Below are positions 14,919 through 20,021 of a stretch of DNA of 38,783 nucleotides, piece after piece (position 1 is the first letter of the stretch; each line of letters begins with the position of its first letter). Both the position numbers and the translations under genes were made by a program. The DNA comes from Nitrospirota bacterium (GTDB taxonomy: Bacteria > Nitrospirota > Thermodesulfovibrionia > Thermodesulfovibrionales > JdFR-88): assembly GCA_021813405.1 (NCBI GenBank), contig JAKAKS010000047.1, forward strand, positions 1-38,783. The letters run 5' to 3'. The notes below the pieces were generated by a model, which saw nothing but the letters and a program-made list of their open reading frames with translations, was not told where the DNA came from and searched no databases.

Positions 14919-15788
14919 TTAAACCGCAATAAACCTTCCCGCAGCCGTCAGGCAGGTTATGGCCAGCGCGCAGACGTCGATGCTTCTTAATGCAAAGTCG
15001 AGGCGGTGGTTTTTTCGGCTGAATACGGCCGCCCCGCCGGCGATTATCCATGCGGCGGGCAGGGCGGAAAGGGCGCGGGTGAAGGGCCCCGTCTGATATA
15101 AGGCCGCAATCAGCAAGGCGGAGGCCGCGGTGCAAAGCTCCCACGCAAAAATTATCCTGCGCAAGCCAGGGCCGGAGAAAACCGTGGTGACCGAAGGCAG
15201 CCCGGCTTCTTCATACTGCCTGCCGTATCTCAGGAGGAAAATCCAGAAATGGGGTATTTGCCAGATATAGAAGAACAAGCAGAAGATGAACAGCCTGGGG
15301 CTTAAAAGGCTGCCGCCCCCGCAAACCCAGCCTATCGCGGGGGATACCGCCCCGGCCAGCGCGCCGGGCAACAGGGCAAACGGCGTCTTTTGTTTCAAGG
15401 GTGTGTAAACCACCCCGTACCAGAGGAACGCCGCGGCGCCCAGCGCAGCTGGCAGCGCCCCCCTTGTTACAAAAAGAACTGAAATGCCCGCCAGCAAAAG
15501 CCCAGCGGAAATCAAAAGCGCGTGGCCTTGTTTCATGCGGCCCGACGGGACTGGCCTTGTGCAAGTCCTGGGCATAAGGGAGTCGGTTTCCGCCTCGGCA
15601 AACTGGTTGAAAGCCGACGCGCCGCACGACAGAAAAAACACCCCGGCGGCAAGCCAGGCCATGAGCGGGAACGAAGGCGCGCCCGGGGAGATAAGATATC
15701 CGGCAATGGCCGATACGGCGATGAAAAGGGATATTCTGATCCTGCAAAGCTCTGCGGCGGCAATCAGCTTTTCAAAAAGCCTTCTCAT
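14919..15788 (-). CDS. ctaB: Protoheme IX farnesyltransferase (heme O synthase)
   Basis: UbiA-family membrane prenyltransferase that farnesylates heme b to heme O, the precursor of heme A for the oxidase encoded upstream. The 289 residues include about eight or nine spans. The first Asp-rich site is NQFAEAETDSLMPRT (Asn, Glu, Asp and Met-x-Arg-Thr as in CyoE/CtaB). The second family landmark YTPLKQKTPFALLPG is followed by AGAVSPAIGW. The start ATG overlaps the stop of the upstream cytochrome c gene by ATGA. It is last in the cox operon. No heme A synthase gene is seen here. Confidence 0.93.
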   Translation of the reverse strand: MRRLFEKLIAAAELCRIRISLFIAVSAIAGYLISPGAPSFPLMAWLAAGVFFLSCGASAFNQFAEAETDSLMPRTCTRPVPSGRMKQGHALLISAGLLLAGISVLFVTRGALPAALGAAAFLWYGVVYTPLKQKTPFALLPGALAGAVSPAIGWVCGGGSLLSPRLFIFCLFFYIWQIPHFWIFLLRYGRQYEEAGLPSVTTVFSGPGLRRIIFAWELCTAASALLIAALYQTGPFTRALSALPAAWIIAGGAAVFSRKNHRLDFALRSIDVCALAITCLTAAGRFIAV

Positions 15789-16177
15789 TTTAATGTTTTT
15801 AAATATGCGATGATGTCTGCAACTTCCTTTTTTGTGAGCGGCGTTTTTGGCATGATCGGCTTATAACCCTTTACCACCCATACGTCCGGGCTGGTTATCA
15901 TGAACCGCAGGTATTTTTCATCAACAGTCTTTACTTGGGGTTTCCCTTTCACCATTACGGTCACTTTCTTGCCGTATATCCCCTTGTAGCTGGGCCCAAC
16001 CAGCGGCTGGCCCGTGGTGGTATGGCAGCCAAGGCAGCCCTTGCTTTTAAGCAGGGTAAGGCCATCTGTTGCGGCAGAGCCAGCCTTTGATGCTGCCAAA
16101 GCCCCTCCGGCGGCAAACAAACCAAGAAAAATCGCGGCTGAAAATATGGTTGATAATGAAAGCCATCTTTTCCCCAT
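15785..16177 (-). CDS. Secreted class I cytochrome c, paralogue of the CoxB C-terminal domain
   Basis: A 130-residue monoheme cytochrome. A Sec signal peptide (about 1-28, ending ALA) precedes one heme site CLGCH, with a distal Met in PIMPKTPL. It is very similar over about 85 residues to the cytochrome domain fused to CoxB directly upstream, and the heme-site DNA matches at 60 of 61 bases, so it arose by tandem duplication or has undergone gene conversion. It probably shuttles electrons to the oxidase. It lies 26 nt after the coxB stop, has AAGGAG before the ATG, and overlaps ctaB by ATGA. Confidence 0.92.
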   Translation of the reverse strand: MGKRWLSLSTIFSAAIFLGLFAAGGALAASKAGSAATDGLTLLKSKGCLGCHTTTGQPLVGPSYKGIYGKKVTVMVKGKPQVKTVDEKYLRFMITSPDVWVVKGYKPIMPKTPLTKKEVADIIAYLKTLK

Positions 16178-16203: not shown

Positions 16204-17124
16204 TTATTTCAGCGTTTTGATATACGCTATTATGTCGTCAACTTCCTTGTCCGTAAGCGGTATCGCAGGCATGATGGGCTGATAACCATGCACAACCCAG
16301 ATGTCCGGATGGGTTATCATGAACTCCAGGTATTTATCGTCCACCGTTTTTACCACCGGCTTGCCGTTTACCAGCACCGTCACTTTTGAACCGTAAATGC
16401 CTTTATAGCTGGGCCCAACCAGCGGCTGGCCCGTGGTGGTGTGGCAGCCAAGGCAGCCCTTGCTTTGAAGCAGTTTAAGTCCGTGGGCGGCATTGGCGCT
16501 CAGGGCGGGGGCCGCCGCTTTGGCCTGATACCATTTATCAAAATCAGCTTCCTGCATTGCCATCAGCTTAGCCCTCATGTCGGAGTGGCCCACCCCGCAG
16601 TATTCCGTTCAGAAGATATCGTATGTGCCGGGCCGGTCCGCCGTAAACCACATGTGCGTTTCCATGCCTGGCACCACGTCCTCCTTGAACTTGAAGGCCG
16701 GTATGAAGAAGCTGTGGATCACGTCGGAACTGGTCATTATCAGCTTCACAGGTTTTCCAACCGGCACCCGCAGATTGCCACTTTGCTTTCCGTTTGCGTA
16801 CAAAAAGCTCCATTTCCACTGCTTTCCATTTACTTTTATATTTATCGTGTCCGGCGGGGCGTTGCGGATGTTGTAAAAATTTGTTGTGCCTATGTAGAAC
16901 ATCCAGATCACAAGAAGCATTGGGATAACCGTCCAGGTTATCTCCAGCATTGGATGTTCCATGGTAGGCGAAGCCTTGGGGCTTTTCCGCTCGTTGTATT
17001 TGATAAGAAAATAGATCATGGGCAAAATCACCGCCAGCAACAGCAGGATGCAAACCCCGGTGATTAGCAGAAACGGCTTCTCCACCCAGGCTGCCGAATT
17101 GGATGGTTCCGCAGGGAAAAACAT
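16204..17124 (-). CDS. coxB: Cytochrome c oxidase subunit II fused to cytochrome c, with in-frame UGA at a CuA cysteine
   Basis: A 306-residue caa3-type subunit II if the UGA at 16609-16611 is read. Two N-terminal membrane spans (about 17-45 and 65-85) precede the cupredoxin domain, with the CuA His in SSDVIHSFFIP and the ligand loop, where homologues have C-T/S-E-x-C-G-x-x-H. Here it reads UGA-Thr-Glu-Tyr-Cys-Gly-Val-Gly-His-Ser-Asp-Met, so only the first Cys (residue 172) is replaced. The following 134 codons are open and encode a linker and a class I cytochrome (CLGCH, PIMPAIPL). Neighbouring genes use UGA as stop, so general reassignment is unlikely. Selenocysteine is my favoured reading; nonsense mutation or sequencing error is possible. 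The start overlaps coxD (TAATG). Confidence 0.88.
16581..16611 (-). promoter_or_regulatory. Candidate bacterial SECIS element in coxB
   Basis: On the minus strand the UGA (16611-16609) is followed by 11 nt, then a 17-nt stem-loop (16597-16581): CGGGGUG pairs with CACUCCG (one G-U) around the loop GGC. Bacterial SECIS elements are stem-loops just after the UGA with a guanine at the start of a small apical loop, and the E. coli fdhF upper stem-loop has similar size and spacing. The bulged U of fdhF is absent. Codon choice for Cys-Gly-Val-Gly-His-Ser could also create this hairpin by chance. Confidence 0.5.
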
Positions 17125-17417
17125 TATCCGGCCATCCTGTAAAAGACATCGGAATAGGTAAGTATTATTATCGACGTAAGGGCGAAGAGGGCCAGAAAGA
17201 TTATTGTCTTGAGAAAACGGTCTTCATGCCTTAAATCCATGAAGTAAAAAAGGTTCAATAACGCCATCGAGGTTGCAATCAGGAAATTCAATGCAACGGC
17301 CATCCTCACGTTCATCAGGGCGATTGCTATTGTGGCTGCCAGCAGGGCCGCAAGCGCTATCCATATAAAAAATAAAATCCCGTACCCCGTTGCTCCCTCC
17401 GGCACTTCCAGCTTCAT
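17124..17417 (-). CDS. coxD: Cytochrome c oxidase subunit IV (CtaF/CoxD-like)
   Basis: A 97-residue protein with three hydrophobic spans, matching the small bacterial subunit IV of aa3/caa3 oxidases. The landmarks are the helix around NFLIATSMALLNLFYFMDLRHEDR and a final helix ending SDVFYRMAG. It assists assembly or stability of the oxidase in the cytoplasmic membrane. GGAG lies 7 nt before the ATG. It sits between coxC and coxB and overlaps coxB by one base pair (TAATG). Confidence 0.88.
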   Translation of the reverse strand: MKLEVPEGATGYGILFFIWIALAALLAATIAIALMNVRMAVALNFLIATSMALLNLFYFMDLRHEDRFLKTIIFLALFALTSIIILTYSDVFYRMAG

Positions 17418-17444: not shown

Positions 17445-18065
17445 TCACTTTGTAACAAGGTAAAAAAGCGGGAAAAGATATATCCACACTATGTCCACAA
17501 AATGCCAGTAAAGCCCGGCATTCTCAAGGCGCGCCGTGTTTTCCCTGTTGATGACGCCCTTGCGCGTGTAACGAAGCATGAACCCCACCACTACAATCCC
17601 AACAATAAGGTGCAGCGCATGAAGCCCGGTCAAGGCATAATAAAGCCCGAAATAGAGGATCTCTCCCTTGGGCAGTTTCAGCAGTACCGGTGAGTTGGGA
17701 TAAAGCCCCTTTGCAATCTTCCAGTGCCATTCGTAGTACTTGATTGCCAGAAAGACTACACCCAGCGCCATGGTAAGCATCTGAAGCCTTTCTGACACCT
17801 TCTGCTGGCCTCTTTTGATTGCGGAGACGGCCATGGCCAGAGTCATGCTGCTTGTAAGCAGCACCAGCGTATTGATGGAGCCGGTGTACAGGTTTTCCTC
17901 CTTTGCCCCCGCGTGGAAATCCAGGGGGAACCTGTAGCGGTAAACGGAATAAAGCAGGAACATGGCCCCGAAAAACAGCAGTTCAGTGTACAGGAAAAAC
18001 CACATCCCGTATTTGGCGGCCATCCTATTCTGCCTGAACTCCGCCGCAGTTTCCATTTCAGCCAT
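17445..18065 (-). CDS. coxC: Cytochrome c oxidase subunit III
   Basis: A 206-residue, five-span form of subunit III, which lacks the first two helices of the mitochondrial type. Landmarks: GMWFFLYTELLFFGAMF, the segment YYEWHWKIAKG, LTGLHALHLIVGI with conserved histidines, and C-terminal LYWHFVDIVWIYLFPLFYL. No redox centres are expected. I place the start at ATG 18065, overlapping the coxA stop by 8 nt; ATG at 18056 and at 18089 are alternatives. It is followed by coxD after a 27-nt gap. Confidence 0.93.
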   Translation of the reverse strand: MAEMETAAEFRQNRMAAKYGMWFFLYTELLFFGAMFLLYSVYRYRFPLDFHAGAKEENLYTGSINTLVLLTSSMTLAMAVSAIKRGQQKVSERLQMLTMALGVVFLAIKYYEWHWKIAKGLYPNSPVLLKLPKGEILYFGLYYALTGLHALHLIVGIVVVGFMLRYTRKGVINRENTARLENAGLYWHFVDIVWIYLFPLFYLVTK

Positions 18066-19689
18066 TCCCGCCCGCCTTGTAGCTGACATGTTTTATTACG
18101 GGTATTTCACCAGGGAAATTACGGGCAGGCGGCGGCGACGGCGTATGCCACTCAAGCGTTGTGCCCCCCCACGGGTTTTCAGGCGCGGCCTCTCCACGGA
18201 ATAAGGCCAGTATCAGGTTGCCGAAGATAATCAGAAGGCCAAGCGCCAGCACCCATGAGCCCGCTACGGATATCATCTGCCCGGTATGGTATTGCGCAGA
18301 ATAATCAAACCATCTCCTCGGCATGCCCTCCGCGCCCATTACGAACATGGGAAAATAAAGGAGGTTGAAGCCTATGAAAAAAATCAGCCAGCCCAGTTTT
18401 GCCGGGCGCTCCCTGTACATCCTGCCAAACATCTTGGGGAACCAGTAGTGGAGGCCGGCAAAAAGCGCGGTGCCTACGCCGCCGAAAACTATATAGTGGA
18501 TGTGCGCTACTATCCAGTAAGTGCCGTGCAGGTCCAGGTTAGGGGCCAGAGCGCCCTGTATGAGGCCGGAAAGCCCGCCTATGGAGAACAGGAATATGAA
18601 CGAGACCGCCCACCACATCGGGGCGTCCAGGCGGATGGAGCCTTTGTAAAGCGTGGCCACCCAGTTAAACACCTTCACTCCGCTTGGTATCGCAACAAAA
18701 AATGTGAGCAGTGAAAACGCCACCCTTGCTGTGTTGCTCATGCCGCTGGTGAACATGTGGTGCCCCCACACCCAGTAGCCCACGCCCGCGATGGCCAGGC
18801 TTGCAAATACCACCGCCTTGTATCCAAAGATGGCCTTTCTGGCGAATGTGGGTATCACCTCGCTGATTATCCCCATGGCGGGCAGTATCATTATATATAC
18901 CGCCGGGTGGGAATATGTCCAGAAAAGATGCTCGTACATTATGGGGTCGCCGCCCCTGGAAGGGTCGAAAAACCCTATGCCAAGCACCCTGCCCATGATT
19001 ATGAAAAGCAGCGTAATCGCAAGCACCGGCGTGGCCAGCATCTGCACCCAGCCGGTAGCGTAAAGCGTCCATACAAAAAGGGGCAGCCGCAGCCACGTCA
19101 TCCCCGGCCCGCGCATTGTGTGTATGGTGGTTACAAAGTTCAGGCCAGTAAGAATTGAGGAAAACCCCAGCACGAACACACCCGCCACCGCAAGTGAGAC
19201 GTTCGTTGGGGTGCGTATGCTGTAAGGGGCGTAAAAGGTCCAGCCGGTATCCGGCGGATGGCCGCTGATAAAAAGGGAGAGCACAACAATGCCTGCGCCG
19301 GTAAGGTATACCCACCAGGATAGCCGGTTTAACCGGGGGAATGCCACGTCCCTGGCCCCTATCATTATTGGCAGAAAGAAATTGCCGAAGGCCACGGGCA
19401 CGCCGGGTATTATCACAAGGAAAAGCTGGACAATCCCATGCACCGTAAAAAGCTCGTCGTACGTCTGGGCCTGCATGAGGGCCCCCGGATGCAGCATGTT
19501 CAGCCGCATTGCAAGCCCCAGGCTTACGCCCACCCAGAAAAAAGACAGCAGCGCCATGAGGTACATTACCCCTATGCGCTTGTGGTCCGTGGAGAGCATC
19601 CAGGAGGCAAAAACACCTCTTCTGCCCGGCGGGTTTTCAAGGTAGCTGGCCTGCCCGGCGGCAGCTGCGCTTTCATGTGCTGGCGTCAT
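18058..19689 (-). CDS. coxA: Cytochrome c oxidase subunit I (A2-type heme-copper oxidase)
   Basis: Catalytic, proton-pumping subunit with twelve spans (543 residues from ATG 19689). Ligands are visible: low-spin heme His in TVHGIVQLF, CuB His and the cross-linked Tyr region in WTYSHPAVYIMILP, the CuB pair in GHHMFTSG, and the heme a3/a histidines in AHIHYIVFGG. The YSHP motif in place of GHPE marks the A2 subfamily, as in Rhodothermus-type caa3 oxidases, which fits the cytochrome c fusion on CoxB. An in-frame GTG 54 nt upstream is possible, but the -10-like TATAAA at 19700-19705 favours 19689. It is the first gene of the operon. Confidence 0.95.
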   Translation of the reverse strand: MTPAHESAAAAGQASYLENPPGRRGVFASWMLSTDHKRIGVMYLMALLSFFWVGVSLGLAMRLNMLHPGALMQAQTYDELFTVHGIVQLFLVIIPGVPVAFGNFFLPIMIGARDVAFPRLNRLSWWVYLTGAGIVVLSLFISGHPPDTGWTFYAPYSIRTPTNVSLAVAGVFVLGFSSILTGLNFVTTIHTMRGPGMTWLRLPLFVWTLYATGWVQMLATPVLAITLLFIIMGRVLGIGFFDPSRGGDPIMYEHLFWTYSHPAVYIMILPAMGIISEVIPTFARKAIFGYKAVVFASLAIAGVGYWVWGHHMFTSGMSNTARVAFSLLTFFVAIPSGVKVFNWVATLYKGSIRLDAPMWWAVSFIFLFSIGGLSGLIQGALAPNLDLHGTYWIVAHIHYIVFGGVGTALFAGLHYWFPKMFGRMYRERPAKLGWLIFFIGFNLLYFPMFVMGAEGMPRRWFDYSAQYHTGQMISVAGSWVLALGLLIIFGNLILALFRGEAAPENPWGGTTLEWHTPSPPPARNFPGEIPVIKHVSYKAGGNG

Positions 19690-19699
19690 TTGATTTAAT

Positions 19700-19705
19700 T
19701 TTATA
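19700..19705 (-). promoter_or_regulatory. -10 element before coxA
   Basis: TATAAA on the minus strand ends 10 nt before the ATG at 19689; no Shine-Dalgarno is visible and the -35 is poor. If used, the coxA operon mRNA is nearly leaderless. A second TTTATAAAA stretch lies further upstream near 19760. Confidence 0.4.
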
Positions 19706-20021
19706 TGAATTACCATTGGCTGAAAAGATGAGAATAAGACCACCCGGTTAAGGTTTTTATAAACTGTGCCGCTTTTCAGTACATTTCATTTGGTTTTTGC
19801 CTTGGCCGTACCAGGGGATGCGGGGGCGGTTCCGTGAAGTGGCCGAGCGAGCCGTTTCGGGCCTTTGGCGCGGCGGTGGCCTTTTACCTTATTCAGCAGA
19901 TAGAGGATAAGACATACCGGCGAATGCCGCTGCACCCCGGCCAAGTTTGGCATATTTTCGCATCAACTCTTTATCAACGTCTTTTTCGCATGTTAGAAGC
20001 GCAAAACGTAGCCAGTCCCGT
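19706..20021. other. Intergenic region between coxA and the DUF4388 gene
   Basis: Holds the divergent promoters of the cox operon and the chemosensory-like operon. No gene is convincing. Bases 19861-19895 resemble 14750-14783, downstream of the DsrC-like gene (28 of 35 aligned positions with one gap), suggesting an old dispersed intergenic repeat. Confidence 0.5.

Follow-up and report, generated by a model that had tools for sequence, protein, structure and literature searches.

A candidate selenocysteine codon at the CuA site of a caa3-type oxidase subunit II in Nitrospirota and neighbouring bacteria

Introduction

The CuA centre ranks among the most conserved metal sites of respiration, and to our knowledge its two bridging cysteines have been thought fixed. 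The locus described here raises the question of whether one of them can be encoded as selenocysteine (Sec), as the codon at its place in a Nitrospirota coxB gene is a UGA. This gene lies on the window, by which we mean the whole 38,783-nucleotide stretch of DNA analysed, and the genome from which the window comes (G000; 2.9 Mb in 56 contigs) is given as 100% complete. All genomes in which we found such a gene are metagenome assemblies, or look so.

The coxB gene and its internal UGA

The sequence-only reading of this DNA had claimed that the coxB frame has UGA at the first CuA cysteine as its sole stop, that it fits standard CoxB without a gap through the motif, and that it continues open past the UGA into a cytochrome c domain. 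Translation, alignment and profile searches bear this out in every part. The frame has one internal stop only, TGA at codon 172, and the read-through product scores 191.3 bits against TIGR02866 (CoxB; cut-off 147.7), with Pfam matches to COX2_TM, COX2 and Cytochrom_C. Its similarity to subunit II of the Thermus caa3 oxidase (2yev_B) is full-length, and alignment to solved CoxB chains is gap-free across the motif, placing position 172 at the first CuA cysteine. The gene and its copper-site codons are as follows.

16204-17124, minus strand: coxB, 306 residues with the UGA read through; transmembrane hairpin, CuA cupredoxin domain and C-terminal cytochrome c domain
16714-16716, minus strand: H137, CuA ligand, invariant in the alignment, its role taken from established CuA structures
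16609-16611, minus strand: in-frame UGA, codon 172, at the first bridging cysteine of the CuA motif U-T-E-Y-C-G-V-G-H-S-D-M
16597-16599, minus strand: C176, the retained second bridging cysteine of CuA, from translation and alignment
16585-16587, minus strand: H180, CuA ligand, from translation and alignment
16576-16578, minus strand: M183, CuA ligand, from translation and alignment

The five side-chain ligand positions (H137, C/U172, C176, H180 and M183), whose roles we take to be those of established CuA structures, are invariant in an alignment of 20 CoxB sequences. The UGA genes thus keep all five columns of the His, Cys, Cys, His, Met set, the first Cys being the UGA, which counts as a cysteine equivalent only if it is decoded as Sec.

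Operon context

The remainder of the cox operon had been described as intact, and apart from the UGA in coxB it is: coxA, coxC, the subunit IV-like gene, the cytochrome gene and ctaB are all open, in the order coxA-coxC-(subunit IV-like)-coxB-cytochrome c-ctaB.

18058-19743, minus strand: coxA, oxidase subunit I, open, with profile matches
17445-18089, minus strand: coxC, oxidase subunit III, open, with profile matches
17124-17417, minus strand: 97-aa membrane protein gene in the subunit IV position, its identity inferred from position and hydrophobicity
15785-16177, minus strand: separate c-type cytochrome, open, with 77% identity to the C-terminal domain of CoxB
14919-15788, minus strand: ctaB, heme O synthase (UbiA family), open, with profile matches

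The stop of the 97-aa protein gene overlaps the coxB start (TAATG), and coxA is the sole full-length heme-copper oxidase subunit I detected in G000. Elsewhere in this genome, a 144-aa frame carries a short partial COX1 match to the end of the profile (C17:13752-14024; 36.9 bits). The free cytochrome that directly follows coxB represents, at its 77% identity to the fused domain, a domain duplication. In another genome (G009), a 601-aa cytochrome b protein encoded on the minus strand in the region C9:7059-7376 carries a fused cytochrome c domain that shares 80% identity with that of CoxB, which suggests a cytochrome c domain common to the bc complex and the oxidase.

Selenocysteine machinery and genetic code

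A search of the genome for selA, selB, selD and tRNA-Sec had been proposed as a check, and all four are present in G000. SelA and SelB score 582 and 356 bits, respectively; the tRNA-Sec has the anticodon UCA (69.6 bits) and is also called by ARAGORN; and selD (C4:21832-22755) itself contains an in-frame TGA. Two formate dehydrogenase-type genes (C33:29009-31012 and C38:44358-45131) likewise have TGA at the active-site codon, in the context ARVUH, and the tRNA-Sec shares contig C38 with one of them. Reassignment of UGA to a sense codon is ruled out: UGA is the ordinary stop of 13 of the 30 window genes, and the code is therefore not reassigned.

Recurrence of the UGA across genomes

A lack of relatives with UGA at this site had been named as a refutation; such relatives were found, in separately assembled genomes. 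Among 101 near relatives, a coxB, full-length or partial, that contains a single TGA is present in G000, G001, G009, G010 and G011, always at the first CuA cysteine. A scan of 84,980 species with a CuA-motif pattern carrying TGA at this position gave six matches, namely G001, G009, G010, G011, FCS_M_Nitrospinota_09 (FCS; a Thermodesulfovibrionia MAG from another family of the class) and WY4.bin13 (WY4; a MAG that bears the label Deltaproteobacteria and that the tree tool assigns to Myxococcota). Each of the six is a coxB gene whose frame is open to either side of the TGA, with the CxxCH heme motif and C-terminal end intact; that of G010 starts at a contig edge and is open from the edge onward. 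Together with G000, this places the same codon in seven genomes and on three CoxB branches, all from a handful of environmental bacteria, most of them in the phylum Nitrospirota. When the pattern was relaxed to TRR (TAA, TAG, TGA or TGG) and run against 396 genomes of the phylum, all four matches had TGA, with no TAA, TAG or TGG at the first cysteine codon; the pattern scan of viral contigs gave no match. Recurrence in a separately assembled genome of the same genus and in more distant ones excludes a private sequencing error or a chance UGA.

SelB exceeds the cut-off in G001, G009, G011, FCS and WY4, and tRNA-Sec is also present in G009, FCS, WY4 and the Cys-encoding relative G006. In G010 (82% complete) tRNA-Sec is present and SelB is not over the cut-off, while in the fragmented or incomplete assemblies G001 and G011 tRNA-Sec was not found at E 1e-9. 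These gaps all concern assemblies that are fragmented or incomplete, and they are compatible with the Sec reading. The WY4 gene lies on contig JAKAJS010000166.1, from a sample series named like that of two Nitrospirota MAGs; its occurrence there could reflect horizontal transfer or misbinning, in the latter case of this contig into a Myxococcota MAG.

CoxB types and predicted Sec/Cys exchange

The UGA-containing genes fall into distinct lineages. Type 1 comprises G000, G001 and G010 (motif YDIFUTEYCG) and type 2 comprises G009, G011 and WY4 (motif YLG[AT]U.SFCGMGHA), whereas the FCS gene forms a third, separate long branch. The two types are only about 31–33% identical and differ in gene order, that of type 2 being coxB, coxA (overlapping at ATGA), coxC and a ctaG-like gene. 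Both nevertheless belong to CoxB: type 2 scores 178.1 bits against TIGR02866, and an operon with subunits I and III is present for the window gene and for type 2 alike.

Sec/Cys alternation is the usual hallmark of selenoprotein families, and its occurrence at the column of codon 172, another of the proposed checks, is evident among relatives. G006 (TGC, 65% identical) adjoins type 1 on the tree, and G127 (TGC, 78% identical) falls within the type 2 clade. The UGA stands at a column otherwise occupied by Cys, in a frame conserved both upstream and downstream. A maximum-likelihood tree built from 42 CoxB proteins needs four changes of the Sec label, at least three of them forced by well-supported branches. 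Since Cys forms are interleaved with the predicted Sec forms, these placements indicate that Sec and Cys have been exchanged at least three times in CoxB. G127 has no tRNA-Sec at threshold; as a C-terminal SelB fragment is present at a contig start, we dropped it as a candidate Sec-less host.

Selection downstream of the UGA

Between G000 and G001, assembled separately from the same genus, the region 3' of the UGA shows six synonymous and no nonsynonymous differences. Downstream of the UGA, dN and dS are 0.18 and 2.2 for G000/G010, and 0.15 and 0.83 for G009/G011, with ratios resembling those upstream. These substitution patterns place the codons after the UGA under purifying selection, which excludes a pseudogene; with dN well below dS, the C-terminal part is presumably translated and needed.

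A putative SECIS hairpin

Directly downstream of the UGA, the window gene can form a compact stem whose loop starts 18 nt past the codon (-10.2 kcal/mol).

16578-16599, minus strand: putative bacterial SECIS hairpin, UGCGGGGUG-GGC-CACUCCG(A)CA, with the apical loop GGC at 16588-16590

Published limits for bacterial SECIS elements are a loop of 3–9 nt with G within the first two positions, a distance of 16–37 nt from the UGA and an energy of at most -7.5 (PMC13188914). All six distinct UGA coxB genes, folded in context, fall within them (-7.9 to -18.2). Type 2 genes form a perfect CGGCAUG-GGG-CAUGCCG hairpin at the same place as in G000 (-10 to -13 kcal/mol), G010 forms GGGAA-GGUCA-UUCCC with its loop at 18, and FCS has a 4+6 bp stem with a mismatch at the loop closure and a CGGGC loop at 17. 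The hairpins of the two G000 FdhA genes have loops 18–19 nt past the UGA, one of them GGUCU at 18 nt. Compared with type 2, G000 keeps the register while two of its pairs differ in both bases (G-C where type 2 has A-U, and G-U where type 2 has C-G), the type 1 hairpin being the weaker.

The energy limit is loose, as 9 of 23 Cys genes also satisfy it, and pair contiguity is therefore the better discriminator. An uninterrupted run of five or more pairs is seen in 5/6 of the distinct UGA genes, compared with 1/36 of the Cys genes (Fisher p 4e-5, uncorrected for shared ancestry), and collapsing type 2 to one gene against 23 Cys genes gives p 0.005, both registers having been picked after the sequences were seen. 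In the type 2 Cys sister the stem is lost (-2.4 versus -10 to -13 kcal/mol). The type 2 Sec genes have Ala in place of the usual Ser of GHS, so that GCC can pair with GGC. The type 1 Cys sister G006 (TGC) can also form a hairpin there. Against synonymous shuffles, p is 0.05–0.16 per gene, with no gene clearly significant alone; the folding energy of the 47–61 nt after the window UGA carries no signal (z about 0), and Rfam gave no match in the window at the gathering threshold. With the whole-region energy near z of 0, the case for a hairpin rests on position, contiguity and comparison rather than on energy.

Proposed decoding and alternative explanations

Taken together, these findings are explained most economically, by a wide margin, by SelB-dependent decoding of the UGA as Sec, and we consider it very likely that this coxB is a selenoprotein gene, with UGA 172 decoded as Sec and a product that is most likely a Sec/Cys-bridged CuA subunit. 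Such a subunit had been proposed from the window sequence, and the Sec machinery, the Sec/Cys alternation and the recurrence across genomes all support it; actual Sec insertion, Se-copper ligation and any functional advantage are what we infer from sequence. SelB with Sec-tRNA(UCA) would decode UGA 172, guided by the coding-sequence hairpin just 3' of it, and the ribosome would proceed to the end of the CuA loop and on through the cytochrome c domain. This would yield the subunit II of a caa3-type oxidase. Given that all other CuA ligands are kept, established CuA structure makes it most likely that its centre is Se/S-bridged: binuclear copper held by the selenolate of Sec172 and the thiolate of Cys176, with His137, His180 and Met183 as the remaining side-chain ligands. 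Electrons would pass from the subunit's own cytochrome c domain to CuA and on to subunit I. Selenium may be of benefit by making the site more resistant to oxidative damage or by shifting its potential, two possibilities that we leave unranked.

That the UGA is instead a nonsense mutation, an assembly error or a sign of decay in an ordinary Cys CoxB gains some plausibility from the sequences all being drafts and from TGA lying one base from the TGC seen in relatives. Yet the same codon recurs in seven genomes and on three branches, the 396 genomes of the phylum have no TAA or TAG at the site, selection past the UGA is strongly purifying with the motif residues after it invariant, and the gene sits in the operon of the genome's sole full-length oxidase subunit I; we regard this explanation as very improbable. 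Equally hard to sustain is readthrough by a near-cognate tRNA (e.g. Trp, Cys or Arg) without selenium. FdhA and SelD alone would also retain the Sec machinery, but this account must contend with SECIS-like hairpins that keep a fixed distance from the codon in UGA genes and are rare among the Cys genes, with a column 172 that otherwise tolerates Cys only, and with the confinement of the UGA pattern, among the genomes tested, to those using Sec.

Two further readings accept Sec insertion and differ in its purpose. The UGA could act as a selenium-dependent switch, giving the full subunit when selenium is available and otherwise a truncated membrane-cupredoxin piece with a role of its own. Stopping is the default at UGA when selenium is scarce, and such a switch is compatible with Sec insertion; the truncated piece, however, would lack the heme domain and all but one of the five CuA side-chain ligands, and we identified no conserved alternative start for a useful second piece, which leaves this reading most unlikely. 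Alternatively, Sec172 could form a selenenylsulfide with Cys176 while copper is being loaded, or work as a redox switch, CuA then being lacking or modified, in keeping with the U/C pairs that act as redox couples in many selenoproteins (PMC13188914). Against this stand the invariance of the remaining CuA ligands in the UGA genes and the intact oxidase operons, and we judge it improbable.

Relation to known selenoproteins and copper sites

The sequence-only reading knew of no described selenoprotein family for the proposed subunit, and this agrees with the prokaryotic selenoprotein inventory of May 2026, which lists 119 families and subfamilies with neither CoxB nor any other oxidase copper subunit among them (PMC13188914 Table 1). 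A full-text search, with subscription papers and preprints largely outside its reach, returned no report linking Sec with CoxB or CuA, and the NCBIfam (June 2026) matches of types 1 and 2 include no selenoprotein CoxB model. On these three grounds we call the predicted Sec CoxB a new selenoprotein family and, within the openly readable literature, a new form of a known metal site. It would quite probably be the first selenium-containing terminal oxidase, with a natural mixed selenolate/thiolate CuA that Nitrospirota and their neighbours gained on no fewer than two or three separate CoxB branches.

A natural Sec/Cys pair, if true, would mean that evolution can swap a bridging atom of CuA; it would offer a native system in which to probe the effect of the bridging chalcogen on potential, delocalisation and electron transfer, and aerobic respiration would join the selenium-dependent processes. 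Standard annotation truncates such coxB genes at the UGA, so that the bacteria would be recorded with broken oxidases.

The closest known counterpart is the caa3-type subunit II (TIGR02866; Thermus thermophilus caa3, PDB 2yev chain B), which has the same domain order and aligns at all CuA ligand columns; unlike it, the window gene encodes the first bridging cysteine as UGA with a hairpin downstream. The FdhA genes of G000 (C33:29009 and C38:44358) share with coxB the in-frame UGA and a similar hairpin position. Sec is a metal ligand in FdhA, as is proposed for CoxB; FdhA, however, is a Mo/W enzyme, whereas the coxB product would hold a copper electron-transfer site. Sec proteins of copper handling include the SO_0444 Cu/Zn efflux transporter and a CopZ-family 2Fe-2S protein (PMC13188914 Table 1). 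As is proposed for CoxB, these link Sec to copper, but neither is a CuA site or a respiratory oxidase. Sec has been placed as a copper ligand in engineered azurins, by replacing Cys with Sec at a cupredoxin copper ligand. Those proteins are man-made and carry a mononuclear type 1 site, whereas the coxB case would be natural and binuclear.
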